NCBI GenBank assembly: GCA_016177915.1
Contig: JACOUI010000255.1
Span: 1-44,673 of the forward strand
Direction of reading: 5' to 3'
From: Planctomycetia bacterium
GTDB taxonomy: Bacteria > Planctomycetota > Planctomycetia > Pirellulales > S012-138
Length of the DNA stretch: 44,673 bases
Numbering within the stretch: position 1 is the first letter of the stretch; the number at the start of each line of letters is the position of its first letter. The translations under genes and the position numbers were made by a program. The notes beneath the pieces were generated by a model, which saw nothing but the letters and a program-made list of their open reading frames with translations, was not told the origin of the DNA and did not search any database. Of this stretch, positions 17,641 through 42,119 are shown one piece after another.

Positions 17641-17745
17641 GGGTGGCACGCCCTGAGCATGGTTGAGTAAACGCCAAGGGGTTGGCTTGAGAGTCGCCTC
17701 GCAAAAGAGAACACGGTTGGAAGTCGTTTGCGAAGGGCGTGCTTG
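17641..17745 (+). repeat. CACGCCCT/AGGGCGTG-bounded element, copy 1
   Basis: The left end is GGGTGGCACGCCCTGAGC and the right end GCGAAGGGCGTGCTTG. The 8-bp inverted repeats are at 17647-17654 and 17734-17741 (span 95). The interior of about 71 nt shows no similarity by eye to the other copies. Confidence 0.85.
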
Positions 17746-17761
17746 GGGGCGAGACGACCTG

Positions 17762-17876
17762 CGCGCGCACGCCCTTCGCGAATGACGTTCCAGCGCGATC
17801 GAATCAGCCAACGCCCTGCCAGGCCCTGGCCCTGATTGATTCGCCAGCGCGCTCAGGGCGTGGCACCCGTGCCACT
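17762..17876 (-). repeat. CACGCCCT/AGGGCGTG-bounded element, copy 2
   Basis: Inverted repeats at 17766-17773 and 17855-17862 (span 97). The outer ends are GCACGCCCTTCGCG and GCTCAGGGCGTGGCACCC. Unlike most copies the interior folds clearly by itself: CGAATCA and TGATTCG can pair around a GCCAGGGCCTGGC-type palindrome. Confidence 0.85.
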
Positions 17877-17889
17877 TATGCCACGCGCC

Positions 17890-17992
17890 GAGCACGCCCT
17901 TCGCAAGAAGGTCGAAGCTGCGTTTTTCGCGGGGCGCGTAGAAGGTCGCCCCACCTGCTTACCGTGGCGGTAATGCTCAGGGCGTGCCACCC
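17890..17992 (-). repeat. CACGCCCT/AGGGCGTG-bounded element, copy 3 (supplies the mobA stop)
   Basis: Inverted repeats at 17893-17900 and 17979-17986 (span 94). The right end GCTCAGGGCGTGCCACCC encodes, on the minus strand, the last residues GGTP and the TGA of mobA. Interior hairpins include TTACCGTGGCGGTAA and GGGGCG pairing with CGCCCC. Confidence 0.87.
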
Positions 17993-18591
17993 GCGAAGCC
18001 GGCATCGGCCAGCGCCGCGCGGTAGTCTTCCGGCGTGTTGAGGTTCCTCAGCGTTTGAAGCTGCGGGTCGACGTCGCGGAGCTCTTCCTCGGAGACGACC
18101 CTCGTCCGCGCGGTCTCCATCAAAAACGCCGGGCGAAGGCGGTCGGCCGCCAGCAGCGCCTCGACCTCTTTGAGCACGCCCACGCGATAGACCGCCGCCA
18201 GGGGATGAAAGAAACCGTCCGTCCGCGGCACGGCGATGTCGTGGTCGCCTAGCAGTTCTTGCAGGCGGCGGACAAAGGCCGGCACCAAAAGCGGCACGTC
18301 GCAGCTTGTGGCGTACGCGGCGTCGGCCCGGTCGCCTAGCGCGATGAGCCCGGCCCGCAGGCCCTCCAGCGGCCCGCGCTCGGGCCGTTCGTCGCAGGCG
18401 ATCGCGACGTCCGACGGCAGGCCAGGGAGCGATTGCCCCTTGGCGGCGACGACGACGATCGGCTGGGCGGCCTGCGCGAGCAGCCGGACGACGCGCTCTA
18501 GCATCGATTCCGGGCCGAATTGCAGCAGCGGCTTGGGGGAACCCATCCGCCGGCTCAGCCCGCCGCAGAGCACGATTCCGCCGCATTTCAT
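17977..18591 (-). CDS. mobA: Molybdenum cofactor guanylyltransferase
   Basis: A 204-residue nucleotidyltransferase-fold protein attaching GMP to molybdopterin. The N-terminal GIVLCGGLSRRMGSPKPLL is the MobA nucleotide-binding signature (LxGGxSxRMGxxK), followed by CDERPERGPLEGLRAGL (the GPLxG motif) and YATSCDVPLLVPAFVRRL (metal Asp). FHPLAAVYRV and RNLNTPEDY complete the family pattern. The start MKCGGIVLCGG is chosen over a longer form. A CTP:molybdopterin cytidylyltransferase (MocA) is an alternative, but the GP-L-G and late NTPEDY elements favour MobA. The C-terminal AGGTP and the stop codon come from a dispersed element. Confidence 0.88.
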   Translation of the reverse strand: MKCGGIVLCGGLSRRMGSPKPLLQFGPESMLERVVRLLAQAAQPIVVVAAKGQSLPGLPSDVAIACDERPERGPLEGLRAGLIALGDRADAAYATSCDVPLLVPAFVRRLQELLGDHDIAVPRTDGFFHPLAAVYRVGVLKEVEALLAADRLRPAFLMETARTRVVSEEELRDVDPQLQTLRNLNTPEDYRAALADAGFAGGTP

Positions 18592-18660
18592 GGCCCAATT
18601 CGCCGCGCGCTTGCGCCCCCAATCCCCCATCAGACTTGGAACCGGGGAGATTGGCAACCC

Positions 18661-20262
18661 CTACTCAGCGTTGCGGATTCCGCACTCCGATCCTTCGCGC
18701 CGGGCGCCGGAGGTGATGGACTGGGCCTGGACGAGGAGGTCGTTATTCAGCTCTTCCAGGTTGGAGGCGCGGCGGATGAGCGGCCCCAAGGGAGTCCCCA
18801 GCGTCTCGCGCAGCTCGGAGCAGAGCTTTTCGGCTTCCTGGAGGATGAGCTGGCTGGTGGCCAGGAGGCTCTTGTGCGACTCCGCGGAACCGTCGCCGCC
18901 GGGAGCGGGCGCCGCCGCGACAATGCCCCGCGCGACGAGCCAGTTCCGATACCAGCGGAGCATCGTGCCGCGGCTGACGATGCCGACGGGATAGCCGTCG
19001 TCGACGATGATCACGCGGCGGACGGCCGACCGCACGAAGAAGTCGCAGATTTTCTGGGCCGGCGTCTCCTCGCCGTAGCAAACGATGTTGCCGCGCATGA
19101 CGTCGCGGATCGGCCGTTCCCAGCCCCGCTCCATCGTCATCAGCGGAATGAGGTCCTTTTCCGAGAGGATGCCGACAAGCTTTCCGCGGCCGTCGACGAC
19201 CGGACTGGCGGCAATCCGAAACCGCAGGAAGAAGTCCGTGGCCTCGCCGACGGTCTCGTCTTCCTTCAGGCAGGGGACGAGCGGCGTCATCACATCGCGG
19301 GCCGTCGCGCCGTGGAAGGGGTTTCGCTCGTTGCAACGGGCCAATAGCGCGCTGTCGCGGAGGATGCTGTGGCGGACGACCCGGTCGCGGCCGGATTCCT
19401 TGGCCACGAGCAGGGCCTGGTCGGCCAGCTCGATCATGTCCTCGAGCCGGCTGGTCTCGCTGAGCCATTCCGCCACGCCGGCGGAGGCGGTGACGGCGAT
19501 CGGCCAGCCGCCCAGCGGCAAGCGGAGGCGCGAGATGGTGTCGCGGACGCGATCGGCCCATTCGGCCGCCCCGTCCTCGTCCGTCTCGGGCAGCAAGGCG
19601 CAGAACTCCTCGCCGCCGTAGCGGCAGACGAGGTCGCTGGCGCGGCTGCTGCCGGCGAGGACCTCGGCCACGGCCTTGAGGACGTCGTCGCCGGCCTGGT
19701 GGCCGAACGAGTCGTTGACGCGCTTGAAAAAGTCGATGTCGATCATGACGCAGGCCATGGTGCGGCCGTAGCGGACGGCGCGGCCGTGCTCGCGGCGCGC
19801 CTCGGCAAGGAACGCCCGCCGCGTCGCCAGGCCCGTCACCGGGTCGACCGAGATCATCCGCTGCAGCCGGCGCTCGAGGCTGAGCATGCGGGCGCCGGCG
19901 TTCATGCGGGCCAGCAGCTCTTCGGCCGGGGCGGGGCGCGGCAGGACCTCGTCCGCCCCGAGGTTGAGTCCCTCGGCCGCGGCCTGCGGCCCGCCCTGTT
20001 CGGCGAGCAAAATCACGAAGACGTAATTCGGCAGCTCCATCTCGCGGATCTTGCTGCAAAGCGTGCCGCTGTCCGTGCCCGGCAGCGGCCACTGCACCAG
20101 CAGGTAGTGCGGGCAGTCGCGTTCGATTTCGCGGACGGCCGCCGCGGAGTCCGCGGCGGTGCGCACCTCGTAGCGGCAGGTCGCCAGGCGCGAGGAGACC
20201 GCCTGGGCCTGGGATTCGTCGCTTTCAACGAGCAGCACCTTGGGCCAGAAGCCGTCTTTCAT
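18661..20262 (-). CDS. REC-GGDEF-CBS diguanylate cyclase
   Basis: A 533-residue predicted soluble signalling enzyme making c-di-GMP from two GTP. Domains: a receiver (about 8-125), GGDEF (about 135-300) with GGEEF at 216-220 and an intact inhibitory site RASD five residues before it, then two CBS repeats (about 308-365, TARDVMTPLVPCLKEDETV; and about 372-430, PIRDVMRGNIVCYGEE), and a helical C-terminus. The receiver phosphoacceptor Asp is replaced by Gln (LLVQWPLPGTDSG) and the usual late Lys-Pro is Arg-Pro, so it probably cannot be phosphorylated. CBS pairs commonly sense adenine nucleotides. Start at MKDGFWPKVLLVESDE. The last residues SECGIRNAE and stop look repeat-derived. Confidence 0.93.
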   Translation of the reverse strand: MKDGFWPKVLLVESDESQAQAVSSRLATCRYEVRTAADSAAAVREIERDCPHYLLVQWPLPGTDSGTLCSKIREMELPNYVFVILLAEQGGPQAAAEGLNLGADEVLPRPAPAEELLARMNAGARMLSLERRLQRMISVDPVTGLATRRAFLAEARREHGRAVRYGRTMACVMIDIDFFKRVNDSFGHQAGDDVLKAVAEVLAGSSRASDLVCRYGGEEFCALLPETDEDGAAEWADRVRDTISRLRLPLGGWPIAVTASAGVAEWLSETSRLEDMIELADQALLVAKESGRDRVVRHSILRDSALLARCNERNPFHGATARDVMTPLVPCLKEDETVGEATDFFLRFRIAASPVVDGRGKLVGILSEKDLIPLMTMERGWERPIRDVMRGNIVCYGEETPAQKICDFFVRSAVRRVIIVDDGYPVGIVSRGTMLRWYRNWLVARGIVAAAPAPGGDGSAESHKSLLATSQLILQEAEKLCSELRETLGTPLGPLIRRASNLEELNNDLLVQAQSITSGARREGSECGIRNAE

Positions 20263-20463
20263 GATTTCGTAGTTCCGCGGGGCAGGTCCGTGAACTGTTT
20301 GTTGAGCCGACAGGCTCCACAAAACTAAGCTTTTTCCAGGCGCGAAGTGAACCTTCGCCGGCAGCGGTGACGGCTGCGCACGGCATCCCTCGGGGACCGA
20401 TCGATATCACCGGCAAAGGCCGCACACCCGGATCGAGCCGAAGCGCTGGAGCGATGCGTTCGC

Positions 20464-20832
20464 TCAGGAGGCGATCGTGCGGGCCACGTTGATCAAGAGC
20501 AGCGCCACGACGACGGTGACGGGATGGATGAGGAGGTTGAGCAGCAGGACGGCGGCGGGCCAGGGCCGGCCGCCGTTGGCGGCCGCGAAGCCCGCGCACC
20601 CCAGGCCCAGGGTGGGCGCGGAAAACCAAGCGATCAGGAGCGCCGGAGGCAAGCTCCGCGCATCGCCGACGGGAACATAAACCAGCGCCACCAGGGCCAG
20701 CAGGACGGCCGACGCGGCCAACAGCGCCCAGGCCGCCAGGGCCGAGATATTGCCGACACGGGCGGCCTTGGCCGCGGCCAGGGCGGCGTCGGAAGCCGCG
20801 CTCCATTGCGGTTTGGCGGACAGGGCACGCAT
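20464..20832 (-). CDS. Small three-helix membrane protein, unknown
   Basis: A 122-residue protein I do not recognise. The ORF track starts at a TTG; the ATG eight codons later (MRALSAKPQW) is preferred. A short hydrophilic N-terminus is followed by membrane segments ISALAAWALLAASAVLLALV, PPALLIAWFSAPTLGLGCAG and PAAVLLLNLLIHPVTVVVAL. It lies 54 nt downstream of the rho ATPase ORF on the same strand, so it could be co-transcribed with rho. Coding likelihood rests on the coherent membrane topology. Confidence 0.6.
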   Translation of the reverse strand: MRALSAKPQWSAASDAALAAAKAARVGNISALAAWALLAASAVLLALVALVYVPVGDARSLPPALLIAWFSAPTLGLGCAGFAAANGGRPWPAAVLLLNLLIHPVTVVVALLLINVARTIAS

Positions 20833-20886
20833 GACGGCACGCGGATCGGATGCCAACCGTCCGGCGCGGCGCGCTGGCTGCGCTCT

Positions 20887-21813
20887 TTACAACGACGCCG
20901 CGTGCGCGTTGGCGATCAGGTTGATGAAATCGCGGTTCGTCTTGAATTTTGCCAGCTTCGACGTGAGCTGCTCCATCGCGTCGACGTGGTGCATCTGCGA
21001 CAAGGTCCGCCGCAGGACGGTGACGGCATGGAGCGTATCGGGATCCAGGAGCAGCTCCTCGCGCCGCGTCCCGGACTGCGTAATGTCGATCGCCGGGTAG
21101 ATCCGCCGGTCGGCCAGCTTGCGGTCCAGCACCAGCTCCATGTTGCCCGTCCCCTTGAACTCCTGGAAGATCACCTCGTCCATGCGGCTGCCGGTGTCGA
21201 TGAGCGCGGTGGCGACGATCGTCAGGGAGCCGCCTTCTTCGAAGGCGCGGGCGGTGGCGAAGAGCTTTTTGGGGATGTCGAGGGCCTTGATGTCCACGCC
21301 GCCGCTCATGGTGCGGTTGCTGCCGCAGACCTTGTTGAAGGCCCGCGCCATGCGCGTGATCGAGTCCATGAGCAGGAACACGTCCTTGCCCATCTCCGCC
21401 AGGCGGCGGCAGCGCTCGACGGTGAACTGCGACAGCCGGACGTGGCTTTCCACGTCGCGGTCCAGGCTGCTGGCCAGGACTTCGCCGCGCACGATGCGGC
21501 GCATCTCGGTGACTTCCTCGGGCCGCTCGTCGACGAGCAGCATCATCAGCTTCAGCTCCGGGTAGTTCGTGGCGATCCCGTGGCTGATGTGCTGCAAGAG
21601 GATCGTTTTGCCGGCCCGGGGCGGGGAGACGATGAGGGCCCGCTGGCCCTTCCCCAGCGGCGTCAAAAGGTCCATGACGCGCGTGGTCAGCGGGGTCGAG
21701 CCGGTTTCGAGGCGCAGCCACTGCGTGGGGTTGATGGGCGTGAGTTGGTCGAAGTGCTTGACGTTCACATAATCGTCGGGCTTCATGCCGTCGACGTCGA
21801 TGATCTCGCGCAC
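20887..21813 (-). CDS. rho: Transcription termination factor Rho, ATPase part (separated by an in-frame TAG)
   Basis: A 308-residue ORF covering the Rho motor: [13 protein letters not shown], the P-loop [27 protein letters not shown] (Walker B region), [11 protein letters not shown], the Q-loop/R-loop region [10 protein letters not shown], and [20 protein letters not shown] with the arginine finger, ending [13 protein letters not shown]. It reads from GTG at 21813. It is in the same frame as the upstream RNA-binding part and separated from it by one TAG at 21825-21823 plus three codons (GPR). AGGGA sits six bases before the GTG, so reinitiation is plausible. The full-length product would be about 466 residues. 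Bicyclomycin-site residues appear intact. Confidence 0.95.
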
Positions 21814-21822
21814 CCGCGGTCC

Positions 21823-22287
21823 CTACTGCCGCCGGCTGTGCTGCACGAGTCCGTTGACCAGCACCCCTTCGCGGAGGCGGAAGCGGTCGATGAGCGTGCC
21901 GGGGACGAAGGGGTCGGTCCGTTCGCGCGAGAAATTGTTGCCCGCGCTGCGGAGGAAGCCGTAGCCGTTGGGGTGCATTTCCAGGACGCCGACGGCCGGC
22001 TCGAGGGGGGCCTCGACGCCGTTTTCCGACGGGACGCCGGCGGCGACAGCGCCGGCCTCCTGCTCGTCGGGTGGCAGGTCCGACGTTTGGGGCGGAGGCT
22101 GCTGCTGGTCATAGCGGGGGCGGAAACGCCGCCCGCGGTAACCGCCGCCGCCGTAGCCGCCGGCACCGTAACCGCCGCCGCCGTAGCCGCCGCCGCCGTA
22201 ACCGTGCCGCGGCGCTCCGCCGCGCCCTGGTTCGTAACCCCCGTCGCCGCTGCGACCCCGCATGCGGCCACGCCTTTTCTTGCTCAT
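21823..22287 (-). CDS. rho: Rho N-terminal RNA-binding part with Gly/Tyr/Arg-rich tract, ending at an amber codon
   Basis: A 154-residue ORF. Residues 1-20 are basic (MSKKRRGRMRGR); about 28-60 is a low-complexity GYGGGG/RGR tract; about 97-154 is the Rho cold-shock-type primary RNA-binding domain (GVLEMHPNGYGFLRSAGNNF, then DPFVPGTLIDRFRLREGVLV). It ends SRRQ then TAG, where full-length Rho would continue [12 protein letters not shown], the sequence present directly after the stop in the same frame. One C-to-T change from CAG would create this TAG. Intrinsically disordered tracts are known in some bacterial Rho proteins and can drive condensation; that role here is inference. Confidence 0.9.
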   Translation of the reverse strand: MSKKRRGRMRGRSGDGGYEPGRGGAPRHGYGGGGYGGGGYGAGGYGGGGYRGRRFRPRYDQQQPPPQTSDLPPDEQEAGAVAAGVPSENGVEAPLEPAVGVLEMHPNGYGFLRSAGNNFSRERTDPFVPGTLIDRFRLREGVLVNGLVQHSRRQ

Positions 22288-22408
22288 TTCTCACCTAGAG
22301 AGCGCGCCCACGATGGTTCGCGGCGGCCGAAAGGCGCGGGACGAACCGGGCAACACAATCGCCCTGGACCATCGCCCCGCACTCGGCAAGACGCCGGCGC
22401 GTGTGGCG

Positions 22409-22448
22409 CAAAAAACCAAAAACACATCAGGCAAATCGATCTGCCTGA
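22409..22448 (-). terminator. Terminator- or attenuator-like hairpin upstream of rho
   Basis: On the minus strand TCAGGCA pairs with TGCCTGA across an 8-nt loop, followed by TGTGTTTTTGGTTTTTTG. This is a moderate intrinsic terminator shape. It is 122-161 nt before the rho start and about 545 nt after clpX, so it may terminate clpX read-through or act in a rho leader. Confidence 0.55.
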
Positions 22449-22653
22449 GACCGCCCTGGGCCGCGACGCGTCTGGCGCTGCGGCGGGACGGCAGCGAGAA
22501 TCAGTTTGCAGGACACCCGGCGTTCATTCGGCGCATGGCGACCCGAAAGACGGATCCCCGATAGACGGATACCGGAAGATGGAAACCGGGATGAACCTAG
22601 TCTCCGAGCAGGCTAGTCAGCGGGCAACCTCGTGCTCCACAAGCTCCCGATCA

Positions 22654-22686
22654 CGGCGGTCTTACCGCCGGGAACAAGCTTGTTCC
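22654..22686. repeat. Two adjacent perfect palindromes
   Basis: CGGCGGTCTTACCGCCG (7-bp stem, 3-nt loop) is followed without a gap by the 16-bp perfect palindrome GGAACAAGCTTGTTCC. No T-tract follows. It has the look of a dispersed repeat, but no second copy is seen in the window. Confidence 0.65.
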
Positions 22687-22992
22687 TCAGGCCAGAACCG
22701 GCGACTCATCCCCCATTGCAGCCACGAGGAAACGGCAGATTGCCATCGCGGGGGGGTGGAACAAACTCTGGAAGGAGTCGTTGACTACGGTCATCTTAGC
22801 TTTCTGTCGCACCGTGTCAACCTTGGAAATTCTACAATCTTTTTCACCCTCGCGGGGCACACCACGCGCAGGGACTTGTGCCGGCCGAAGGTCCGCACGC
22901 CGGTCGCGGCCCGCTGCTAGCACCCGCCGGCGGTCTTTGGGAGATTCCCTATCGCCTATGGACACTCCGCGGGCGTTCGGCAGGCCGAGGCA

Positions 22993-24309
22993 CTACGCGC
23001 TTTTCGTGATCGGTTCGGGCATGGGCAGGACCTTGCCGCGGCCGGCCACGATGTCTTCGGAAATCCGGTAGCGCTTTCCGTAGCCGTGCTCGGGCAGGTC
23101 GTAGAGGACGTCGAGCATCAGGCCCTCGACGATCGACCGCAGGCCGCGTGCGCCGGTGCCCTTTTCCATCGCCAGCTCGGCGACCTTGCGCAATGCGCCT
23201 TCCGTGAACTCCAGCTCGGCGTTCTCCAGCTCGAACATCTTCTGGTACTGCTTGAGCAGGGCGTTCTTGGGATCGCACAGCACGTGCACCAGCGCGTCGG
23301 CGTCCAGCGGCAACAGCGGCGCCACGACCGGCAGCCGGCCCACGAACTCCGGGATCATGCCGAATTGCATCAGGTCTTCGCTGGTCACCTGGGGCAGGAG
23401 CTGGCTCAGGTCGTTTTCGCCGACGATGTCGCCGGACTTCTGCCCGAAGCCGATCGTCTTGTGACCCAGGCGCTTGGCGATGATTTTCTCGATGCCGACA
23501 AACGTCCCGCCGCAGATGAAAAGGATGTTCGAGGTGTCAAGCTGGATGTACTGCTGCTCGGGGTGTTTTCGGCCGCCCTGGGGCGGGACGTTGGCGACCG
23601 TGCCTTCCAGCATTTTGAGGAGCGCTTGTTGCACTCCCTCGCCCGACACGTCGCGCGTGATCGAGACGTTGTGGCTCGTCTTGCCGATCTTGTCGATTTC
23701 GTCGATGTAGAGCACGCCGCGCTGGGCGGCCTCGATGTCGAAGTCGGCCGCGTGCAAGAGCTTGAGGAGCAGGTTCTCCACGTCCTCGCCGACGTAGCCC
23801 GCCTCGGTCAGCGTCGTCGCGTCGCCGATGGCAAAGGGGACGTTGAGCAACCGGGCGAGCGTGCGGGCCAGGAGCGTCTTGCCGCTGCCGGTGGGCCCGA
23901 TGAGCAGGATGTTCGCCTTGTCGATCTCGACCTCGGAGCCGGTGGCCCCCAGGTTCAGCCGCTTGTAGTGGCCGTGCACCGCCACCGAGAGGACCTTTTT
24001 GGCGTGGTCCTGGCCGACGACGTACTGGTCGAGGTGGGAATGGATTTCGCGCGGCGAGGGGATTTTCTGGAAGAGCGGGCGCTCGCCGCCGCGGCTTTTG
24101 CGCTCGCGGTCGAGGATCGACTGGCACAGGTCCAGGCACTCGCCGCAGATATAGACTTCGCCCGGCCCCTCGACCAACGGTCCCACGTCGCGATAACTCT
24201 TGCGACAGAAGGAACAAAACGCGTTGCGCTTGTTCCCGCCGTTCCGTCGATTGGCCGGGTTGTTGAGGTTGGCGTTTCCGTCCCTCCCCGAGGTTGATGT
24301 TGGGGGCAT
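22993..24309 (-). CDS. clpX: ATP-dependent Clp protease ATP-binding subunit ClpX
   Basis: A 438-residue AAA+ unfoldase that feeds ssrA-tagged and other substrates to ClpP. A Gly/Asn-rich leader of about 28 residues precedes the ZBD zinc finger (FCSFCRKS and [10 protein letters not shown]). The AAA+ core has [15 protein letters not shown] (Walker A), [15 protein letters not shown] (pore loop 1 region), [12 protein letters not shown] (Walker B), [11 protein letters not shown] (sensor/arginine finger region) and [15 protein letters not shown]. Length is typical. AAGGAG lies 5-6 nt before the ATG. No clpP is adjacent, although clpP-clpX pairs are common. It is followed by a 705-nt gap before rho. 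Confidence 0.97.
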
Positions 24310-24972
24310 GGCTGCTCCTTATCCGGTTGCCCGGCCGCCGCGATTTTGGCGGCGGCTCGCGTGCGAATCCCAGGTGTCGCTCGATTGACCGGCGGACGCG
24401 TATCTTTCTTGCGCGTCAACGCGGCCAGGGGCATCCATGTCCACGAAGAATCGAGCCTGACGAGTGTCTCCTTCGGCCGTGCTGATTGGTGCGGTTTCCG
24501 GGCGGCAGCCTCCTCCCTGGCGCTGCCAAACCGGCGCTGGCGGTCGGAAAAGACCGCGGCGCGGGCCCTGCGGCCCGACCCGTTGGTTTGCTCCGCGCTT
24601 CCGGCACGGCCGGACGTGGTCCCGCCATGCTGTCGCCAGCTTCGCCTTGTATTGTTCGGTAATCGCCGCGGACAAGCACACCGCGCCGGTGTGATTGCCG
24701 GTTATGCGCAAGCTTCAGGTCGCTGCGCCTGAAGCAGCGCACGGGCATCCTTGGATGGAAGCGCCCGCCGTCCTGGTCGGCACAATCATTATGCCGCGCG
24801 CGGCGCCGGAATTCCAGGAGCGCAGCCGCCGGATTGCGAACTGCGGCCACGCTCCCCTACGCGGCGCTCGGGTAAATTGACACTCCCCCTACCCGCCCTT
24901 ACGCTGGACCGGCCCTGCGGGTTTTCGCGAGGGCGCCGTTTCACAATCTCTTCACGATCCCGGCCGCTGGAA
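24310..24972. other. Intergenic region between clpX and eda
   Basis: No gene is supported in 663 nt; the ORFs on both strands are short and arginine/proline-rich. Two hairpins are visible, CACACCGCGCCGGTGTG (24678-24694) and GCTTCAGG pairing with CCTGAAGC (24712-24735), neither with a T-tract. It contains divergent promoters for clpX and eda, which I cannot place. Confidence 0.55.
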
Positions 24973-25620
24973 ATGTCCAAGGCAGAGCAGCTCGACCGCT
25001 TGCTGCGGTGCGGCATCGTCGCCATCGTCCGCGCAGGCCGCGGCGAACTCCTGGTCGACGCGGCCGAAGCATTGCTTTCTGGCGGCATCGACGTAATTGA
25101 AATCACGTTCACGGTTCCCAAGGCCCAGCGGGTTTTGGAGCAAGTCGCGGACCGTTTGGGGGACAAAGTTCTCTTGGGGGCGGGAACGGTGCTGGACGCC
25201 GCCACGGCGCGGGCGGCGATGCTGGCGGGGGCGGAGTTTTTCGTATCGCCGGCCGTCAATCTCGACGTCATCCGCCTCGCCCGGCGGTACGGCAAACTCG
25301 TGCTCCCCGGCGCTTTCACGCCGACAGAGATTCTGACGGCCTGGGAGGCGGGGGCGGACCTCGTCAAGGTTTTTCCCTGCGATACGCTCGGCCCGGCCTA
25401 CTTGCAGGCCGTCGCGGCCCCGCTGCCACAGGTGCCTCTGGTGCCGACCGGCGGGATCACGCTCGATAACGCCGCGGCGTTTTTGCAGGCCGGGGCCTGT
25501 GCGCTGGGCATCGGCGGATCGCTCGTGCCGGCGCAGGCGGTCGCGGCCGGCGACCTTGCGCGCATCGAAACGCTGGCCAGGCAGTTCGTTCAGGTCGTGG
25601 CGGACGCGCGGAAGCCGTAG
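24973..25620 (+). CDS. eda: KDPG/KHG aldolase
   Basis: A 215-residue class I aldolase cleaving 2-dehydro-3-deoxy-6-phosphogluconate to pyruvate and glyceraldehyde 3-phosphate (also active on 4-hydroxy-2-oxoglutarate in the family). Motifs: GIVAIVRAGRGEL, GGIDVIEITFTVPKAQ (active-site Glu), LLGAGTVLDAATARAAMLAG, EFFVSPAVNLDV, the Schiff-base Lys in DLVKVFPCDTLGP, and LVPTGGITLDNA. The start MSKAEQLDRLLRCG is chosen; the ORF-track form adds 74 unlikely residues. No edd gene is near, so it may serve hexuronate breakdown or the Entner-Doudoroff pathway with a distant partner. Confidence 0.94.
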   Translation: MSKAEQLDRLLRCGIVAIVRAGRGELLVDAAEALLSGGIDVIEITFTVPKAQRVLEQVADRLGDKVLLGAGTVLDAATARAAMLAGAEFFVSPAVNLDVIRLARRYGKLVLPGAFTPTEILTAWEAGADLVKVFPCDTLGPAYLQAVAAPLPQVPLVPTGGITLDNAAAFLQAGACALGIGGSLVPAQAVAAGDLARIETLARQFVQVVADARKP

Positions 25621-25959
25621 TCGGACGAGCGGGCACGCGGCCTCGAGCGCGCCCGTCGAGCACGCCCTTCGCAACCAATGCGGAGCAGCTCTTAGGGTGG
25701 CGGCGTCGAATGCGGGGAGAGCGGACTCCAGTGGCCGCCGCGCTCAGGGCGTGCCACCCGTGCCACCCGCAAATTCGGCGTCCGCGGCACCGCCGGCCAT
25801 CGCGGCGGCTTTCGGTCCGCCGCGTGAATGGCCATCCGTGTCGGGTTTTCACTTTCCTGCACCAGCGGATGATATGTTTCGATTGTCGGCGAAAAACCAA
25901 TTCGGATGTGGGGTCCGAAACGCACAAAATCGACGCGCGCAAACGCGGAAAGGGCCGGT
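25621..25959. other. Intergenic region between eda and the PilZ-like gene, with a repeat element
   Basis: No gene is supported in 339 nt. Element copy 4 fills 25657-25770. The remainder leads to the PilZ-like gene; GGAAAGGGCC just before the ATG at 25960 can serve as its ribosome-binding site. Confidence 0.65.
25657..25770 (-). repeat. CACGCCCT/AGGGCGTG-bounded element, copy 4
   Basis: Inverted repeats at 25661-25668 and 25746-25753 (span 93), followed by GCCACCCGTGCCACCC. It begins 36 nt after the eda stop. In the interior GGCGGC and GCCGCC can pair. Confidence 0.85.
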
Positions 25960-26604: not shown

Positions 26605-26617
26605 CGAACGGGCCGGG

Positions 26618-27514: not shown

Positions 27515-27559
27515 GTCCTGCGCTCCACGTCACCTGACCCCAGCCACAGTCGGCGCTGC

Positions 27560-31425: not shown

Positions 31426-31508
31426 GGAGCGATCCTCAAAGGTCGATGGCGACGTGGCCGTCTATCATGCCATGCGGAAACGCGCCGTACAATCCGCAGC
31501 CTCAGCCG

Positions 31509-31564: not shown

Positions 31565-31612
31565 GGGGCTAAATCCCCAGCGCCCGCCGCTTCTCGAGGA
31601 TGAAGGTCATCC

Positions 31613-31722: not shown

Positions 31723-31729
31723 TGGTCAG

Positions 31730-31757
31730 GCTACATCGCGCGGAGCGCGATGGCTAC
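31730..31757. repeat. GCTACATCGCGCGGAGCGCG palindrome
   Basis: A 28-nt near-perfect palindrome running from GCTACATCGCGC to GCGCGATGGCTAC, 8 nt after the end of aceE on the minus-strand reading. It could act as a 3' stem-loop, but no U-tract follows. Confidence 0.75.
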
Positions 31758-31765
31758 GATTTCCA

Positions 31766-34456: not shown

Positions 34457-34649
34457 GGGCGGCCTCCGGGGAGCGTTGCGGCGGGAAGATGGATGCGTAC
34501 ACGATGTGCGGGCGCGGCGCGGGCGGTCCATTGGAAATCTACCCGTGGCGCAGTGAATCGGAAAGGGCCGACGAGCTTGACGCGCGACGGACGCGCACTG
34601 CGACGGCCGCGCCCTACAACGCCGCCGCCCTGCCGGGTACGATTCATGC

Positions 34650-35441: not shown

Positions 35442-36301
35442 CGGACCCGCTGCCCAAACTGCCCGCCCGGCGCCCGGACTCCCACAAGGGCGACTTTGGC
35501 ACGGCGCTCTTGATCGGCGGCAGCCGCGACATGCCGGGGGCGATCGCACTGTGCGGAATGGGAGCGCTGCGGAGCGGGGCGGGGCTGGTGCGGCTGGCCG
35601 TGCCGTCGGCTTGCCATTCGATCGTGGCTTCGTTCGAGCCTTCTTACATGACGGCGGCGCTGGCCTGCGACGCCGACGGCAGGATTTCAGCGGCGGCGCG
35701 AGATCGTTTGATGGAACTCGTTGCCCACTCCACGGCCGTGGCCATCGGGCCGGGCATGGGACGGTCCAAGGAACTCGACGAACTGGTCGCCGACCTCTAC
35801 ATGCACGTTGCGCTACCGATGATCGTCGACGCCGACGCGCTCAATGCGCTTTCGGGCAAGCCCGCGGCGCTGGAAAAACCCGGCGGGCCGCGCATCCTGA
35901 CGCCCCACCCTGGCGAATTCGCGCGGCTCGCGGGCGTGACGACGGCCGAAGTGCAAGCGAAGCGGCAGACGCTGGCCGAGACGTTCGCCGCCTGGTCCCA
36001 CGCCATCGTGGTCCTCAAGGGATACAAGACGCTGATCACCGACGGCAAGAAAACCGCCGTCAACGAGACGGGAAATCCCGGCATGGCCACCGGCGGCACC
36101 GGCGACGTGCTGACGGGCGTCATCACGGCCCTGGTCTGCCAGAAGCTGGCGCCGTTCGACGCAGCGCATTTGGGGGTACACGTTCACGGCCTGGCCGCGG
36201 ACCGCGTCTCGGCCGAGCGCGGCACGCACGGCATGATCGCCCGTGACATTGCGGAGTTTCTTCCGGAGGCGTTTTTGCACGTCAAGCGCAGCCCGGCATG
36301 A
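35438..36301 (+). CDS. nnrD: ADP-dependent NAD(P)H-hydrate dehydratase
   Basis: A 287-residue repair enzyme that dehydrates the S form of damaged NAD(P)H hydrates using ADP. Ribokinase-like fold: HKGDFGTALLIGGSRDMPGA, GALRSGAGLVRLAVP, AIGPGMGRS, IVDADALNAL, LTPHPGEFARLAGV, and the nucleotide site NPGMATGGTGDVLTGVI with the catalytic Asp. No epimerase (NnrE/YjeF N-terminal) domain is fused. It overlaps larB and the following 60-residue ORF by 4 nt each, so the three genes form one tightly coupled unit. Confidence 0.95.
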   Translation: MTDPLPKLPARRPDSHKGDFGTALLIGGSRDMPGAIALCGMGALRSGAGLVRLAVPSACHSIVASFEPSYMTAALACDADGRISAAARDRLMELVAHSTAVAIGPGMGRSKELDELVADLYMHVALPMIVDADALNALSGKPAALEKPGGPRILTPHPGEFARLAGVTTAEVQAKRQTLAETFAAWSHAIVVLKGYKTLITDGKKTAVNETGNPGMATGGTGDVLTGVITALVCQKLAPFDAAHLGVHVHGLAADRVSAERGTHGMIARDIAEFLPEAFLHVKRSPA

Positions 36302-36480
36302 GCAACGTCAACCCAAGAGAGCGCGAAGAAGCCCGCGGCTGGTCCGTCTGTCGGCAGGACGACAACGGGAACCGGTTTGTGGTGGCGACGCGACTGGGGC
36401 GGGAGGAGGCGGAGAAGCTCGCGGCGGAACTGGAATCCCGCGAACACAAGCAGACGTATTGGGCAGACGAAAACGCGTAG
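36298..36480 (+). CDS. 60-residue protein, unknown
   Basis: A 60-residue charged protein starting in an ATGA overlap with nnrD, which argues that it is real. The sequence (WSVCRQDDNGNRFVVATRLG, then REEAEKLAAELESREHKQTYW) suggests a small two-strand plus helix fold, somewhat like SPOR-type or single-module proteins. No function is assigned. Its stop codon TAG is the first three bases of a dispersed repeat (TAGGGCGGGCGGCCCGCCTG). Confidence 0.75.
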   Translation: MSNVNPREREEARGWSVCRQDDNGNRFVVATRLGREEAEKLAAELESREHKQTYWADENA

Positions 36481-36535
36481 GGCGGGCGGCCCGCCTGCCG
36501 TATTTTCGTGGGGCAGGCGTCTCGCCTGCCGCTTC
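36478..36535. repeat. GTAGGGCGGGCGGCCCGCC-type repeat, copy 2 (contains the small-ORF stop)
   Basis: Two hairpins, GGCGGGCGGCCCGCCTGCC and GGGCAGGCGTCTCGCCTGCC, separated by GTATTTTCGTG. It matches the repeat at 30152-30208 in reverse order. The TAG of the 60-residue ORF is its first three bases. Confidence 0.8.
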
Positions 36536-36562
36536 TGAATCGCGGTCAAGTTTTATGTCAAC

Positions 36563-36590
36563 ACCGGGGGGCTGACGCCCCCCGCTCGCC
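36563..36590. repeat. GGGGGGCTGACGCCCCCC hairpin before lpdA
   Basis: A perfect 7-bp GC stem (GGGGGGC/GCCCCCC) with a TGAC loop, followed by CGCTCGCC, ending 12 nt before the lpdA ATG. It could be a terminator-like or translation-affecting structure; it also looks like another dispersed repeat. Confidence 0.75.
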
Positions 36591-36602
36591 ATTGGGAGCG
36601 TC

Positions 36603-38009
36603 ATGCACACGCAGCTTCTCGTTCTCGGTGCCGGGCCTGGCGGATATGCGGCGGCGTTTCTGGCGGCCGACAAAGGCCTGCAGGTGACGCTTGTGGACGC
36701 CGACCCGCGCCTGGGCGGCACGTGCCTCCTCCGCGGCTGCATTCCGTCCAAGGCCCTGCTGCACGTGGCCAAGGTGATGCACGAGGCTGGCGGGCTGCGC
36801 GAGTGGGGAATCGATTTCCCGGCACCCGCGGTGAATATCGATCTGCTTCGCACCCGCAAAGAGAAAGTGCTCAACACTCTCGCAAATGGTCTCAAGCAAC
36901 TGGCGAAGCAGCGGAAAGTGAACGTCGTCACGGGCCGGGGGCGGTTTGTCAACTCGAGCACGCTGGCCGTGGATCGGATCGCCGAGCCATTCACCTTCGA
37001 TCACTGCATCCTGGCCACCGGCTCGACGCCGGCGAAGATTCCCGCGTTCGACCTCAACAGCCCGCGCGTGATGGACTCGGCCGCTGCGCTCGATCTGCCC
37101 GACGTGCCTGCGTCGCTCCTGGTCTTGGGGGGCGGGTACATCGGCCTGGAACTGGGGACGGTGTTTGCCACGCTCGGCTCGAAGGTGACGGTCATCGAGT
37201 TGACGGAGGGACTCTTGCCGGGCGTTGATCGCGACCTGGTGAAGCCTCTTTCGGGGCGGCTGGAAAAGTTGTTTGCGGCGATCCGTCTTGAGACGAAAGT
37301 GCTGCGGCTCGAGGACCGCGGCGAGGGGATCGACGTCACCTCAGCCGGCGCCGGCGGGGAGCGGACGGAGCGGTTTGAGCGCGTGCTCGTTTCGGTGGGG
37401 CGAAAGCCGTGTACCGCAGAAATCGGCCTGGAGAAGACGCAGGTGCGGCTCGATCAGCGCGGGTTTGTCATCGTCGACGCGCAGCGGCGCACGGCGGACC
37501 CGCACATCCTGGCGATTGGCGACGTGGCGGGCGAGCCGATGCTGGCGCACAAGGCGACGCACGAGGCGAAGGTGGCCGTCGAGGCGCTGGCCGGCGAGCC
37601 GGCGTCGTTCGATCCCGTCGCCATCCCGGCCGTCGTCTTCACCGACCCGGAGATCGCCTGGGCCGGGCTGACGGAAGGGCAGGCCAAAGAGCAAGGCCGG
37701 CAGGTCGCCGTCGCGCGGTTCCCCTGGGCCGCGAGCGGCAAGGCGCAGTCGCTCGGTCGGACCGAAGGGATGACGAAAATCCTCTACGACGGCGAGACGG
37801 AGCGCGTGTTGGGCCTTGGGATCGTGGGCGCGAGCGCGGGCGACCTCATTGCGGAGTGCGTCCTGGCCCTGGAGATGGGCTGCACGCTGCGCGACGTGGC
37901 CGAAACGATCCACCCGCACCCGACGCTGGGCGAGACGGTGGGGATGGCGGCGGAGATGCCGCTGGGTCTGGCGACGGAGATTTACCGGCCGAAGCGCAAC
38001 ACTCCGTGA
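36603..38009 (+). CDS. lpdA: Dihydrolipoyl dehydrogenase
   Basis: A 468-residue FAD flavoprotein that reoxidises dihydrolipoyl groups of 2-oxoacid dehydrogenase complexes with NAD+. The FAD fold is LLVLGAGPGGYAAAFLAAD, the redox-active disulfide GGTCLLRGCIPSKALLH, the NAD fold LLVLGGGYIGLELGTVFATLG, then HILAIGDVAGEPMLAHKATHE and the active-site base HPHPTLGETVG of the partner subunit. It is full length. It lies with aceE in one locus, so it is a candidate E3 of the pyruvate dehydrogenase complex; E2 (aceF) is not here. Confidence 0.96.
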   Translation: MHTQLLVLGAGPGGYAAAFLAADKGLQVTLVDADPRLGGTCLLRGCIPSKALLHVAKVMHEAGGLREWGIDFPAPAVNIDLLRTRKEKVLNTLANGLKQLAKQRKVNVVTGRGRFVNSSTLAVDRIAEPFTFDHCILATGSTPAKIPAFDLNSPRVMDSAAALDLPDVPASLLVLGGGYIGLELGTVFATLGSKVTVIELTEGLLPGVDRDLVKPLSGRLEKLFAAIRLETKVLRLEDRGEGIDVTSAGAGGERTERFERVLVSVGRKPCTAEIGLEKTQVRLDQRGFVIVDAQRRTADPHILAIGDVAGEPMLAHKATHEAKVAVEALAGEPASFDPVAIPAVVFTDPEIAWAGLTEGQAKEQGRQVAVARFPWAASGKAQSLGRTEGMTKILYDGETERVLGLGIVGASAGDLIAECVLALEMGCTLRDVAETIHPHPTLGETVGMAAEMPLGLATEIYRPKRNTP

Positions 38010-38106
38010 CGTCGTCGTCGCGCTTTGCGTCCGTCGGCGCGGGGTTGCCGAGCACGCGGAGAAGAAACACGGTACAATACACAAGGACTCGCGCAGGAGA
38101 GAAACT

Positions 38107-38373
38107 ATGACTCCCGTCCTCAGCGACGAACAACGACAGGCGATTGCGGAGGGGCACGGAGCGCCGGTCTTCGTTCTCGACACTCTGTCGCAGTCGCAAT
38201 ATGTGCTCTTGCCGGCAGCGGCGTACCAGCGCATTCGCTCGCTCTTTGGCGGCGACGATCCGTTCGACATCAGCGAGACGTACGTCATTCAAGATGAGGC
38301 CGCCGACAAGGCGTGGAGCCACCCTGAGGACGCCGCCTACGACGACTACGACGCCCACCGCCAACAACCATGA
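38107..38373 (+). CDS. Antitoxin-like protein of a MazF-type module
   Basis: An 88-residue acidic protein directly upstream of a MazF/PemK-like toxin, overlapping it by 4 nt (ATGA). Sequence: MTPVLSDEQRQAIAEGHGAP then VFVLDTLSQSQYVLLPAAAY, and a C-terminal acidic tail (DDPFDISETY, AYDDYDAHRQQP). It does not look like the AbrB/MazE N-terminal domain. The position, size and acidic tail fit an antitoxin. A strong ribosome-binding site (AGGAGAG) precedes the ATG. The ORF-track start is 97 codons too early. Confidence 0.78.
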   Translation: MTPVLSDEQRQAIAEGHGAPVFVLDTLSQSQYVLLPAAAYQRIRSLFGGDDPFDISETYVIQDEAADKAWSHPEDAAYDDYDAHRQQP

Positions 38374-38723
38374 GCGTCAGCCGCGGCGACATCGTGCTGG
38401 TCGATATGCCGTTCGCCCAGGGCGGCGGTTCGAAGATAGGTCCGGCGCTCGTCGTGCAAGCGGACCGCAGCAACACTCGCCTGACGAACACAATCGTGGC
38501 CGCGGTCACCCGAAACACCAGCCGCGTCCGCGAACCGACACAGCTATTGATCGAATTGGCGACGCCCGCCGGTCAACAATCGGGCCTGCTTGCCGATTCA
38601 GCCGTGACGTGCGAGAACCTCTTCACGGTCAGTCAGCAGTTCGTTCGGCGCACGATCGGCAGCCTGTCGCCGCAAGCGATGCGGCAAATCGACGACTGCC
38701 TCAAGGCGGCACTGGGTCTGTAG
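38370..38723 (+). CDS. MazF/PemK-like endoribonuclease toxin
   Basis: A 117-residue protein with the MazF/CcdB fold signatures: SRGDIVLVDMPFAQGGGSKI, GPALVVQADRSNTRLTNTIV, and LLADSAVTCENLFTV. The conserved R-G-D/E-I-V-x-V start, the R-P/G-A-L-V-V-Q strand and the late S-x-V-x-C-x-N pattern are all present (R is replaced by G at one point). MazF toxins cleave single-stranded mRNA at short motifs. It is translationally coupled to the upstream antitoxin. Confidence 0.88.
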   Translation: MSVSRGDIVLVDMPFAQGGGSKIGPALVVQADRSNTRLTNTIVAAVTRNTSRVREPTQLLIELATPAGQQSGLLADSAVTCENLFTVSQQFVRRTIGSLSPQAMRQIDDCLKAALGL

Positions 38724-38739
38724 CGAGAATCGTGCGCGC

Positions 38740-40377
38740 TCAAATCCGGATGAAGATCTTCCGCCACCACATCCACACGCAGATGAGCCACAGCACGCAG
38801 AGCACCAGCAGCGATTCCCAAAACGGGCCGTAGAAATTGTCGCTCACCGCGCGGCCCCAGAAGTCGTAGCCCGCGGCCTTGCCGATCGCGACGGCGTGGA
38901 ACTTGAGCGTGGCCGCGGTCCAGGGCTTGATGAGCTGCGCCAGGCAGTAGATGGCGATCGAGTTGAGACCCACGACCGCCAGTGGAAAGGCCAGCTTCCG
39001 CCAGCCCCAGCCGTCGATCACGCCGTAAAAGAGCGCGAAAATCACCATCGCCCAGCCCGCGCTGTACACCGTCCAGGTCGGCGTCCAGATGCGCTTCACG
39101 GCCGGGCCAAAGGTCCACGTCGCCTGCGGAATGAGCCGCCGCAGCGCGTCGGGCCAGACGGTCGTGTCGACGGCCATGGCCACGAGGATGCAGACGATGC
39201 CGCCCAGGAAGAGCCAGCGGAAATTGCTAAAGGGCGTCTCGCGCCGGCGGAACAAGAGCTGGCCGGCCATCAGGCCGAAGATCATCGTGGCGATCGAGGG
39301 CACGAAGTTGAGCGTCTGGTAGCCGCCGTCATTGACCCAGAATTGCTTGTCCTTCCAGGGCTTTTCGTGGCGCGGGAAGACGTTGAGATACTTGCGGTCG
39401 AAGTCGGCGGCGGCGTTGGTGTGTTTGTTCCAGTGCGCCGCCAGGCCCGTGAATTGGTCCCAGTCTTTCTCCGCCAGCGGCCCCGCGCGGGCCGAGCCGT
39501 CCTTGGGGTTGATGGTTTGCCGGTAGGCGATCACGTCGTCGCGCTCGGCCGGCTTGGGCGCGTACTGGAAGAACCACCACCAGTAGCCGCCCAGGATGGC
39601 GGCGATCACGGCCAGGTGCAGCCACCAGCCGCGATTGCAGAGGACCCAGACGACCATGTAGCCCAGGCCGATCTGCGTGAGCACGTTGACGAACGTGAAG
39701 TTCGTCTGCGGGCCGGAGTTCGACGACAGGAACACGCCGAGCAGGATCAGGATGACGCAGCGCAAGACGGCGTGCAGGAAGCGGCGAATCCAGAAGTGCC
39801 CCTCGGCCTTGCGGCGGGACTCGGCAAACGGGATCGCCGCCCCCACGATGAACATGAACGACGGCTGGATCAGGTCCCAGAACGAGCAGCCGACCCAGGA
39901 GACGTGCTCGAACTGGTAGGCCAGCGTATTCCAAAGCTGCGGCCAGAACCGGCCGAGCGTCGTGCCGGCGTGCTGCTGCAGAACTTCCTGATGGTCCCGC
40001 ACGATCCTGGCAAAGCCGAAGCCGCCGGAGATCATCGCCAGCATGACGAAGCCGCGATAGGCGTCGAGCGAGACGAGACGGGTCGTCGGGCGGACGGCCG
40101 GCGCGGCGGGCGACACTTCGCGGATTTCGCGGCTAGGCAGTGGCTGGGCGTAAGGGTATCGCTTAGGCAGCATCGCCGACGCGGGCTGACCGGATGTCGG
40201 GGCGGAGGCCGACTTGACAGGCGCGGGCGTGACCGGGGCCAACTTGAAGGCCTCTTTCGCGCCGCTTGTCGGCGCGCCGGATGCGGGAGTAGGGCCGGGC
40301 GGGGGACCGAGGTTGGCCGGTGGGGGTCCGATCGGCTTGGGCAGGTCCGGCGAAGTGGATGAGTCGGTCGCAGCCAT
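38740..40377 (-). CDS. DUF5009/NagX-like membrane acyltransferase
   Basis: A 545-residue integral membrane protein. After a Pro/Ala-rich leader of about 80 residues comes RLVSLDAYRGFVMLAMISGG, the R-x-x-S-x-D-x-x-R-G start typical of heparan-alpha-glucosaminide N-acetyltransferase-like and DUF5009 proteins. About ten membrane segments follow, with FIVGAAIPFAESRRK and AVVGLNSIAIYCLAQLI, ending WMWWRKIFIRI. The family transfers acyl groups across the membrane to sugars; the substrate here is unknown. The long cytoplasmic leader is unusual. Start at MAATDSSTS. Confidence 0.85.
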   Translation of the reverse strand: MAATDSSTSPDLPKPIGPPPANLGPPPGPTPASGAPTSGAKEAFKLAPVTPAPVKSASAPTSGQPASAMLPKRYPYAQPLPSREIREVSPAAPAVRPTTRLVSLDAYRGFVMLAMISGGFGFARIVRDHQEVLQQHAGTTLGRFWPQLWNTLAYQFEHVSWVGCSFWDLIQPSFMFIVGAAIPFAESRRKAEGHFWIRRFLHAVLRCVILILLGVFLSSNSGPQTNFTFVNVLTQIGLGYMVVWVLCNRGWWLHLAVIAAILGGYWWWFFQYAPKPAERDDVIAYRQTINPKDGSARAGPLAEKDWDQFTGLAAHWNKHTNAAADFDRKYLNVFPRHEKPWKDKQFWVNDGGYQTLNFVPSIATMIFGLMAGQLLFRRRETPFSNFRWLFLGGIVCILVAMAVDTTVWPDALRRLIPQATWTFGPAVKRIWTPTWTVYSAGWAMVIFALFYGVIDGWGWRKLAFPLAVVGLNSIAIYCLAQLIKPWTAATLKFHAVAIGKAAGYDFWGRAVSDNFYGPFWESLLVLCVLWLICVWMWWRKIFIRI

Positions 40378-40572
40378 GGCTTTCTCCTGCGTCTGGCCCG
40401 AGATCGGCCAGCGCGCACGCAAAGCGCCCGGCGCGCCGGCTTGGCCCCTATTTCAGATTACCCCATTGGGCGGGCCGGGGGGAGAAGAAACGCGCCGTTG
40501 GCGGATGTTACGCGAAGCCGACGACGTTTCGAAATGGACGCGGATGAGACGGATTGGGTGGATGGGCGCGGA

Positions 40573-41175
40573 TCAGCGCAGGCGGGTCGCAAACTCGCGC
40601 TGGCTGCGTTCCGGGCTTTCAATGCCAAAGTCGAGGAGCAACTGCGGATCGGGCTCAAAGTCGCCGAACTCCTTGAACAGCAGGCTCGGCTGGATGTCCT
40701 GGTTGTGCTGGTACTTGCTGGCGTACTCCGTCACGTCGCCCTTGATCTCGTGATAGAAGATCTGGCAGATCGGGACGCCGGCAAAGACCCGCACCGGCTG
40801 GACCGCGAACATCTCCAAGGTCCAGTAACCGCAAAAGCCCACGTCGCCAAACCCGGCCGTCACGTGGACGAACAAGCCCAGGCGGCCGATCGAAGAGCGG
40901 CCCTCGATCATCGGCACGAGGTTGTGGGTTTCCGTGCGTTCGGCGGTGCGGCCCAGGTAAAGCTGATTTGGGCTGAGCACGAGACCCTCCGGCGGAATCT
41001 CCAGCCGCCGCACGCGGTTGGGCCTGCTCATGTCCAGTACGACCTCCTCGTACACCATCAGTTCGTGGTGCAACGTGAGGTTGTAGCTGTTGGGGTTCAG
41101 TCGCGATTCGTCGAACGGGTCGATGACGATGTTCCGCCCAAGCTGGGCGCGGATCTCATGGCCGGAGAGGATCAT
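40573..41175 (-). CDS. dcd: dCTP deaminase
   Basis: A 200-residue enzyme deaminating dCTP to dUTP to feed dTMP synthesis. Motifs: MILSGHEIRAQL, SRLNPNSYNLTLH, the signature MIEGRSSIGRLGLFVH (catalytic loop), TAGFGDVGFCGYWTLEMF (active-site Glu) and YQHNQDIQPSLLFKEF near the C-terminus. The chosen start is the internal ATG (MILSGHE). Bifunctional dCTP deaminase/dUTPases share these motifs and cannot be excluded. Confidence 0.93.
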   Translation of the reverse strand: MILSGHEIRAQLGRNIVIDPFDESRLNPNSYNLTLHHELMVYEEVVLDMSRPNRVRRLEIPPEGLVLSPNQLYLGRTAERTETHNLVPMIEGRSSIGRLGLFVHVTAGFGDVGFCGYWTLEMFAVQPVRVFAGVPICQIFYHEIKGDVTEYASKYQHNQDIQPSLLFKEFGDFEPDPQLLLDFGIESPERSQREFATRLR

Positions 41176-41489
41176 GCCAGTGCGGGGGCTGGAGGAGGGC
41201 CGGCGGGCGCGCTCCGTCGCGGCGATCTCGCGGCTGGCGGCGCTCGGCAAGCGGAAATATACCGCCGCGCGCGGCCTTTCGGCGAGACGCCGCGCTAGTT
41301 TTTTTCCGCGCCGGGGACGTAACGTGAGTTTCGCGGCCGGAGGTCGAGTGCAGCGCGCCCACGGTATTCAGGTTTCGAGCGGCGGAATTGTGTTTCCCCG
41401 CGGCTGCGCCTAGACTGCTTAGTCAGGCCGCGGCCGGCATTGCCGCATCGGCAGGGGGCTTCGCGGCCGGCACGTCCGGAGACATCGCC

Positions 41490-41906
41490 ATGCGTCGCGC
41501 TCTTTGGCTCTTTGCGCCCCTCGCGCTCGTACTGTCCGGCTGCGGACAAGCGCCGCAAAGCGGCGCCAGCGCCGCGCAGAATCCGCCGGCCAATCCCGGT
41601 GCGACCGAAATCGTGCCGGCCACGATGAACACCGTCGGCACGAAGGGGCGCGATTACGGCGGCGACCCGATCACCGAGCCGATCAGCCAATACTGGAAGG
41701 TGCAGGACCGGCTCGCGCTGGACACGTACAACTACGCGATGAAGCTCTACTACGCCGAGCACGGCGAGTACCCACCGACGCTGGAAGACGTCAAGCCGCT
41801 TTTGGCCATGCCGCTGCCGCCACTGAAGCCCGGCCACGAGTACGTCTATGACCCCAAGACGGGGCAGCTTTTTGTGAAGCGGCCGACGGGAGCGCCTGCG
41901 CAGTGA
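41490..41906 (+). CDS. Lipoprotein, unknown
   Basis: A 138-residue protein with a lipoprotein signal (MRRALWLFAPLALVLSGCGQ; lipobox LSGC). The mature part has an Ala/Pro-rich linker, then QDRLALDTYNYAMKLYYAEH and GEYPPTLEDVKPLLAMPLPP, reminiscent of small planctomycete proteins that resemble pseudopilin C-terminal domains (YAEHGEYPPTLE). It ends with a short YVYDPKTGQLFVKRP strand. Repeat element copy 5 starts about 9 nt after its stop. Function is unknown. Confidence 0.8.
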   Translation: MRRALWLFAPLALVLSGCGQAPQSGASAAQNPPANPGATEIVPATMNTVGTKGRDYGGDPITEPISQYWKVQDRLALDTYNYAMKLYYAEHGEYPPTLEDVKPLLAMPLPPLKPGHEYVYDPKTGQLFVKRPTGAPAQ

Positions 41907-41914
41907 GCCGCGCG

Positions 41915-42013
41915 TGTGGCACGCCCTGAGCTTGCCGGACTCCAAGCGAGCCGCCGCCATCTGAGGCCGAATCATCCAATCGCGTTCCGCCCCGGCTGCG
42001 AAGGGCGTGCTCG
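41915..42013 (+). repeat. CACGCCCT/AGGGCGTG-bounded element, copy 5
   Basis: Inverted repeats at 41920-41927 and 42002-42009 (span 90). The ends read TGTGGCACGCCCTGAGC and GCGAAGGGCGTGCTCG. It follows the lipoprotein stop immediately and is inverted relative to copy 6. Confidence 0.85.
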
Positions 42014-42015
42014 AC

Positions 42016-42119
42016 GCGCCACGCCCTTCGCTCATGAAGGCATGAGGCCACTTCACTTCAGGCGTTTCTTTGCGCCGGCGTAGATGCGCTGCTCGGCGAT
42101 GCTCAGGGCGTGCCACCCG
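42016..42119 (-). repeat. CACGCCCT/AGGGCGTG-bounded element, copy 6 (supplies the stop of the large gene)
   Basis: Inverted repeats at 42020-42027 and 42105-42112 (span 93). On the minus strand its GGGTGGCACGCCCTGAGC end encodes the last residues GGTP and TGA of the large upstream gene, exactly as copy 3 does for mobA. It lies tail-to-tail with copy 5. Confidence 0.87.

Follow-up and report, generated by a model that had tools for sequence, protein, structure and literature searches.

Six short intervals in a 44,673-nt stretch of DNA from a Planctomycetia bacterium (the window) raise the question of what kind of element keeps its ends and its length when its interior appears to share nothing from one copy to the next. 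An initial annotation had described them as bounded by an inverted repeat and placed at or just after stop codons, and had proposed an undescribed element: a structured 3' end, a small RNA, a recombination site, or a mobile unit whose middle diverges fast. The window contains 15 occurrences of the 8-mer CACGCCCT versus 2.45 +/- 1.81 expected, and 12 of the 15 build the six intervals, whose existence with conserved ends is thereby borne out, as it is by the genome-wide search described below. Measured with the outer edges of the 8-mers included, the spans are 95, 95, 94, 93, 90 and 93 bp; five of the values first reported stand and that of copy 2 is corrected from 97 to 95. We describe the intervals as modules related to repetitive extragenic palindromes (REPs), elements associated with domesticated transposases called RAYTs.

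Copy 1 (17641..17741, plus strand, 8-mer span 17647-17741), a long-tip REP with its GTGG head on the left, consists of GGGTGG (17641-17646), the arm CACGCCCTGAGC, an interior and the arm GCGAAGGGCGTG. A central spacer of 26 nt, without strand (17742..17767), separates it from its inverted partner, copy 2 (17768..17868, minus strand, 8-mer span 17768-17862), whose tail is GCACCC, not CCACCC. An additional module, copy 3 (17893..17992, minus strand, 8-mer span 17893-17986), lies next to this pair, and scattered short GTGGCAC/GTGCCAC repeats resembling loose REP heads were also noticed near copies 1-3 (17600-17890). Copy 4 (25661..25759, minus strand, 8-mer span 25661-25753) is a single module, located about 40 nt past the point where a KDPG/KHG-aldolase gene (24751-25620) ends. 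The second pair is formed by copy 5 (41914..42009, plus strand, 8-mer span 41920-42009), a long-tip REP with the head GTGTGG, a 10-nt central spacer without strand (42010..42019) and the inverted partner copy 6 (42020..42118, minus strand, 8-mer span 42020-42112). The reported position at stop codons applies to copy 5, which begins 10 nt from the first base of the TGA that closes a plus-strand frame (41388-41906), whereas copies 3 and 6 themselves supply the stop: their outer ends terminate a minus-strand open reading frame (17977-18657, TGA) and a 799-aa minus-strand frame (42103-44502) respectively, in both cases reading ...GGT GGC ACG CCC TGA.

The source genome (G000) is a fragmented assembly of 6.03 Mb in 387 contigs with about 93% completeness. 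A search of it with both ends, as the initial annotation had suggested, gave 107 matches over both strands to the two arms set 60-90 nt apart, and none to the reversed control pattern. With 2 mismatches permitted per arm, 66 modules (up to 100 bp) were recovered at 39 places; their lengths range from 86 to 99 bp with a mean of 93.2 bp and a standard deviation of 1.8, so that the description of conserved ends around an unconserved interior of almost constant length survives on the scale of the genome. Read from the inside outwards, a module consists of CACGCCCTTCGC, about 69 variable nt, GCTCAGGGCGTG and CCACCC, and on the opposite strand of GGGTGG-CACGCCCT-GA-GC ... GC-GA-AGGGCGTG. The lower stem thus comprises 8 bp (CACGCCCT/AGGGCGTG), a conserved 2x2 mismatch (GA opposite GA, head strand) and 2 bp of GC/GC. 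The 8-bp arms are inverted, as first noted, but the ends are not a plain inverted repeat: the GTGG head stands on GGGTGGCACGCCCTGAGC and none stands on GCGAAGGGCGTG. No mismatch is found in the 24 arm nt of 56 of the 66 modules, and CCAC or a variant follows nearly every module. We considered whether ascertainment lay behind these perfect ends and rejected it, a 3-mismatch scan having returned right ends that were exact in 51 cases and one base off in about 32; among the matches listed, decayed ends did not grow in number. An attC integron site was rejected by inspection, as the GTTRRRY/RYYYAAC core is absent and neither conserved arm contains GTT or AAC. The modules form 26 inverted pairs with both heads outermost, separated by 10-60 nt except at one spacer of 700 nt with a gene inside. 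Fourteen modules have no detected long partner, which tells against the REPIN reading given below; two of them do have a partner that the arm search missed, one with an extra base in its outer arm (L046) and one that is short-tipped (L064). The same genome also holds a second REP class with the arm CCTCAGGGCGTGCCACCC (contigs C2, C36, C151, C165, C349, C374 and C387), whose tips are short or 17-18 nt and self-complementary (e.g. CACGCCCTGAGGTCGCACGTCGCGACCGAAGGGCGTG), and a third class of outer end, TTTCAGGGCGTGCCACCC (contigs C56, C123:9092-9211 and C268).

This anatomy matches that of a REP except in its tip. The GTAG/GTGG tetranucleotide of REPs lies 0-2 nt 5' of the hairpin, and here GGGTGG directly precedes CACGCCCT; a basal stem of at least 7 pairs with an optional mismatch bulge is represented by the 8 bp, GA/GA and GC/GC described above; and two inverted REPs acting as a dispersed unit, the mark of a REPIN, are represented by the 26 pairs, both members being common to dispersed copies. 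Above the bulge, published definitions allow either a loop of 2-5 nt or a second stem (PMC6006769), and the tips of the 66 modules, about 69 nt long, are neither. An unstructured 69-nt tip lies outside the REP definitions in use (PMC6006769), which counts against REP identity, and because it breaks the published loop rules we file the long form as a variant and not as a plain member of the REPs.

Among the 12 Y1_Tnp domains of the genome, that of a RAYT gene on contig C185 (HUH, single Tyr) is encoded between two inverted long modules, in the position usually taken by the spacer. The product of about 206 aa carries HVH and YIHANP motifs and scores 90.5 bits versus the NCBIfam model NF047646 ('REP-associated tyrosine transposase', cut-off 80); its sole match in the PDB is E. 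coli TnpAREP (4er8), a weak one (E 0.0011). Its frame extends across the right module's inner arm to a stop 23 nt into that module (L051:5172-5837), so that the end of the gene overlaps the element. Of 297 genomes from the order, 131 contain relatives of this RAYT. The closest of these, at L132 and 59% identical, has inverted REPs on either side with the arms GGGTGGCACGCTCTGA and CGAAGGGCGTGG, near-identical to those of the long modules, and the next-closest has REP pairs with GGGTGGCACGCCCT arms on both sides. Since related RAYT genes are bracketed by short-tipped REPs, the long modules occupy the REP position of related REPtrons. They are linked to this one RAYT gene only, and its protein need not be active.

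Short-tipped relatives also occur elsewhere. Among 84,980 species genomes scanned, 47 stretches, mostly of Planctomycetota, carry the 18-nt outer end GCTCAGGGCGTGCCACCC; the inner arm is present in 36 of the 47, with a tip of 1-6 nt in 35 and of 30 nt in one, and 21 of these 36 have an inverted partner. Their loops are of the length expected of REPs and these forms are classical GTGG-headed REP hairpins in a REPIN/BIME arrangement. Short tips between the same 12-nt arms occur in the present genome as well, in three copies (C24, C51 and C213). Calling the intervals an undescribed element was therefore too strong, as in other Planctomycetota the same arms, with 1-6-nt tips, already make up REP pairs of the ordinary RAYT type; what seems new is the 69-nt tip. 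The proposals of a recombination site or of a new RNA likewise gave way, the same arms forming classical REP hairpins elsewhere. By exact arm patterns, the long form is present in this one genome only among 397 of the order and absent from the 396 others, a set that holds no other genome of the genus; three counts of the long pattern, in G321 and G378, come from short-tipped REPs standing in arrays. Long tips on other arms were looked for next to 30 RAYT genes. Some RAYT genes there lie among different REP pairs or arrays, with 8-nt arms recurring about 80-100 bp apart on both sides (L139 in G075; L135/L136 in G050 and G119). At two of these loci, L135 and L139, the arms lie about 93 bp from each other; both were considered as long tips and set aside, the arm positions appearing to give short-tipped pairs or arrays. 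Spread by viruses or plasmids was also rejected: the two-arm pattern is absent from viral contigs, pair 2 has no plasmid match and no RAYT-like phage protein was found.

The history of the units can be read from copies that descend from one ancestral pair. Four of them (L043, L049, L050 and L063) have both interiors in common, and their flanks show 0.71-0.74 differences per site, which is about random. As the flanks are unrelated, the unit must start at GGGTGG and end at the other head. The idea of a mobile or recombining unit with a diverging middle is thus upheld by dispersed copies with sharp boundaries in unrelated surroundings. Within the group the outer ends show 0.028-0.056 differences per site and the inner ends 0, as compared to 0.25 substitutions per site in both interiors and likewise 0.25 in the central spacer. 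Gapped cells number 6 versus 822 aligned in the interiors and 37 versus 172 aligned in the spacer, and the standard deviation of length is 1.8 for modules versus 13.2 for spacers (Levene p 4e-12). With equal substitution and fewer gaps, the interior drifts like the spacer and changes length far less, and the arms are held. Hypermutation of the interior was rejected on the same grounds, its substitution rate being that of the central spacer.

Two further units at L047 have both interiors in common with each other, and the interior of copy 2 (17780-17850) aligns with five other modules of the genome, to which it is homologous. Genome-wide, alignments of interiors in the same orientation outscore the controls on average, and for 34 of the 66 interiors there is a relative whose score exceeds that of every reversed or reverse-complement control. 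When two interior groups were made into sequence-only models, these hit targets inside elements only, one new partner at C156 among them; many interiors are consequently old copies of each other. Capture of the interior from elsewhere in the genome was rejected, as interior-only models matched nothing outside elements. The first impression that the interiors share no sequence holds among the six of the window (best pairwise score 2.5) but not in the genome at large. The initial annotation had also stated that its view of a constant span would fall if the ends were randomly spaced or the interiors homologous and merely old; this came true by half, many interiors being homologous and the span being constant.

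The units lie at the 3' ends of genes. Judged by third-position GC, 56 of 78 sides have a gene running into the element; 11 of these genes end exactly 13 nt inside it, with the TGA in GGTGGCACGCCCTGA as their stop, and about 20 end at most 23 nt before it, all these counts being approximate. Among genes ending inside the element the early-TGA frame accounts for 11 versus 5 other outcomes, which suggests that insertions leaving a short tail may be the best tolerated.

This location at gene 3' ends, together with strong private hairpins in some interiors (L038, L058 and L041), would be expected of a structured RNA in which the fold is conserved and not the sequence, either as part of a 3' UTR or as a small RNA. 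One of these modules, of 86 bp (L041:5084-5171, C101), has an interior made of three private hairpins unlike the others and arms matching the CC class. As a group, however, the interiors fold like dinucleotide shuffles (mean z about -0.3 with both RNA and DNA parameters). A map of left versus right interior positions over 64 modules shows no co-varying diagonal and no stem extension, alifold consensus structures of the two homologous interior groups contain zero pairs with two-sided (compensatory) change, and both module orientations are present at every pair. Rfam gave no match in the window and none at a relaxed threshold around copies 1-3. Complementarity between the left and right interiors of one pair, which could form a long hairpin, is not significant (p 0.16). 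Folding like shuffles and without covariation, the interiors offer no conserved RNA or DNA fold, neither the compensatory changes that mark a structured RNA family nor those that keep hairpin capacity in REPINs; the covariance check that had been advised, the conserved fold and the structured 3' end or small RNA all came out negative, and we regard the RNA explanation as largely refuted and very improbable. The 8-bp stem, by contrast with any fold of the interior, is predicted to close on ssDNA with a mean probability of 0.95, or 0.94 with shuffled interiors, so that the arms would give the same REP foot with any interior.

The homology between interiors and their drift at the rate of the spacer would also suit a decayed MITE of a DDE-type transposon, of which the TIRs survive around old, drifted interiors and in which no RAYT takes part. 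Such an origin leaves unexplained that conservation of the inner arm and of the asymmetric head equals that of the outer end, that the unit has four arms and not two, and that a RAYT gene is bracketed by modules just as related RAYT genes are bracketed by short-tipped homologues; we hold it to be improbable, if somewhat less so than the RNA. A better prospect, though still an unlikely one, is that tip length is under selection for a task on double-stranded DNA to which mobility is secondary, two proteins or DNA faces meeting over about nine helical turns on a binding platform (compare BIMEs with gyrase or IHF). It would account for the narrow length distribution relative to the spacers, for the few gaps in the interiors and for 66 copies with near-perfect arms. 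Short-tipped forms are nevertheless abundant elsewhere and present here, from which it follows that the span is not generally required, and lengths from 86 to 99 occur.

We therefore favor, with a probability of roughly 0.82, the reading of the intervals as non-autonomous, RAYT-mobilised REPINs with giant, sequence-free and length-limited tips. Each interval of 90-97 bp would be one GTGG-headed, RAYT-associated REP in which about 69 nt have replaced the 1-6-nt tip, and two inverted REPs with heads outermost around a 10-60-nt spacer would make up a non-autonomous unit, about 200-250 bp long and REPIN-like in design. A RAYT (Y1 HUH transposase), presumably that of C185, would bind the single-stranded head, the lower stem and the bulge and thereby move the unit. 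The tip, unread by the enzyme, would drift as the central spacer does and the arms stay constant, large changes in tip length would not be retained, and units would settle at gene 3' ends, just behind a stop codon or providing it. As for the reason of the length limit, it is conceivable, and somewhat less doubtful than the platform, that the enzyme or the synapse measures the distance between arms, the fixed insert of about 69 nt having become part of the transposable unit in this lineage; the tip would then be a length-gated compartment for arbitrary sequence. Long-tip REPs bear on the rules by which RAYTs recognize REPs and raise the testable question of why length is kept. More generally, elements with constant ends and a variable middle in GC-rich genomes can be REPINs, and standard REP finders, which expect tiny loops, would miss them.

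The closest parallel in design is found in the REPINs of P. fluorescens SBW25, in which the ends are invariant and the spacers differ in sequence, not in length (PMC3116915). Like the long modules, these are dispersed, extragenic and RAYT-linked, and combine an inverted REP pair and spacer with invariant ends and a length-constrained variable middle. In SBW25 the variable part lies between two REPs and its hairpin is kept by compensatory changes (PMC3116915), whereas here each single REP has its own variable tip of about 69 nt with no conserved fold. Planctomycetes are among the phyla named for GTAG/GTGG-headed REPs and REPtrons (PMC3733652, PMC6006769). These have, as here, an 8-bp GC-rich stem with a GTGG head immediately on its 5' side and a stem mismatch like that of the long REPs, and they flank a tnpAREP/RAYT gene; their described loops are of 2-5 nt or bear a short second stem, and the published rules make no room for a tip of 69 nt. 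Nearest of all are the short-tipped Planctomycetota REP pairs (e.g. the LacPavin MAG, JAPLNP01; loci L075-L118), with the same arms, head and inverted arrangement, a similar spacer and a tip of 1-6 nt (once 30) versus about 69 here. In E. coli, TnpAREP, whose structure with the y REP is known (PMC8266576; PDB 4er8), is related to the C185 RAYT. The role of the upper stem-loop is there non-specific and structural, the lower stem, bulge and head being what matters, and binding is abolished when the upper part is removed (PMC8266576). The y REP combines the bulge AA-GC, the head GTAG and a short hairpin as its upper part (PMC8266576), as compared to GA/GA, GTGG and a tip of about 69 nt in the present elements. 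A REP tip that has grown more than tenfold, drifting in sequence at a kept length, would separate the parts read by the enzyme (head, lower stem and bulge) from a tip sequence that it ignores.
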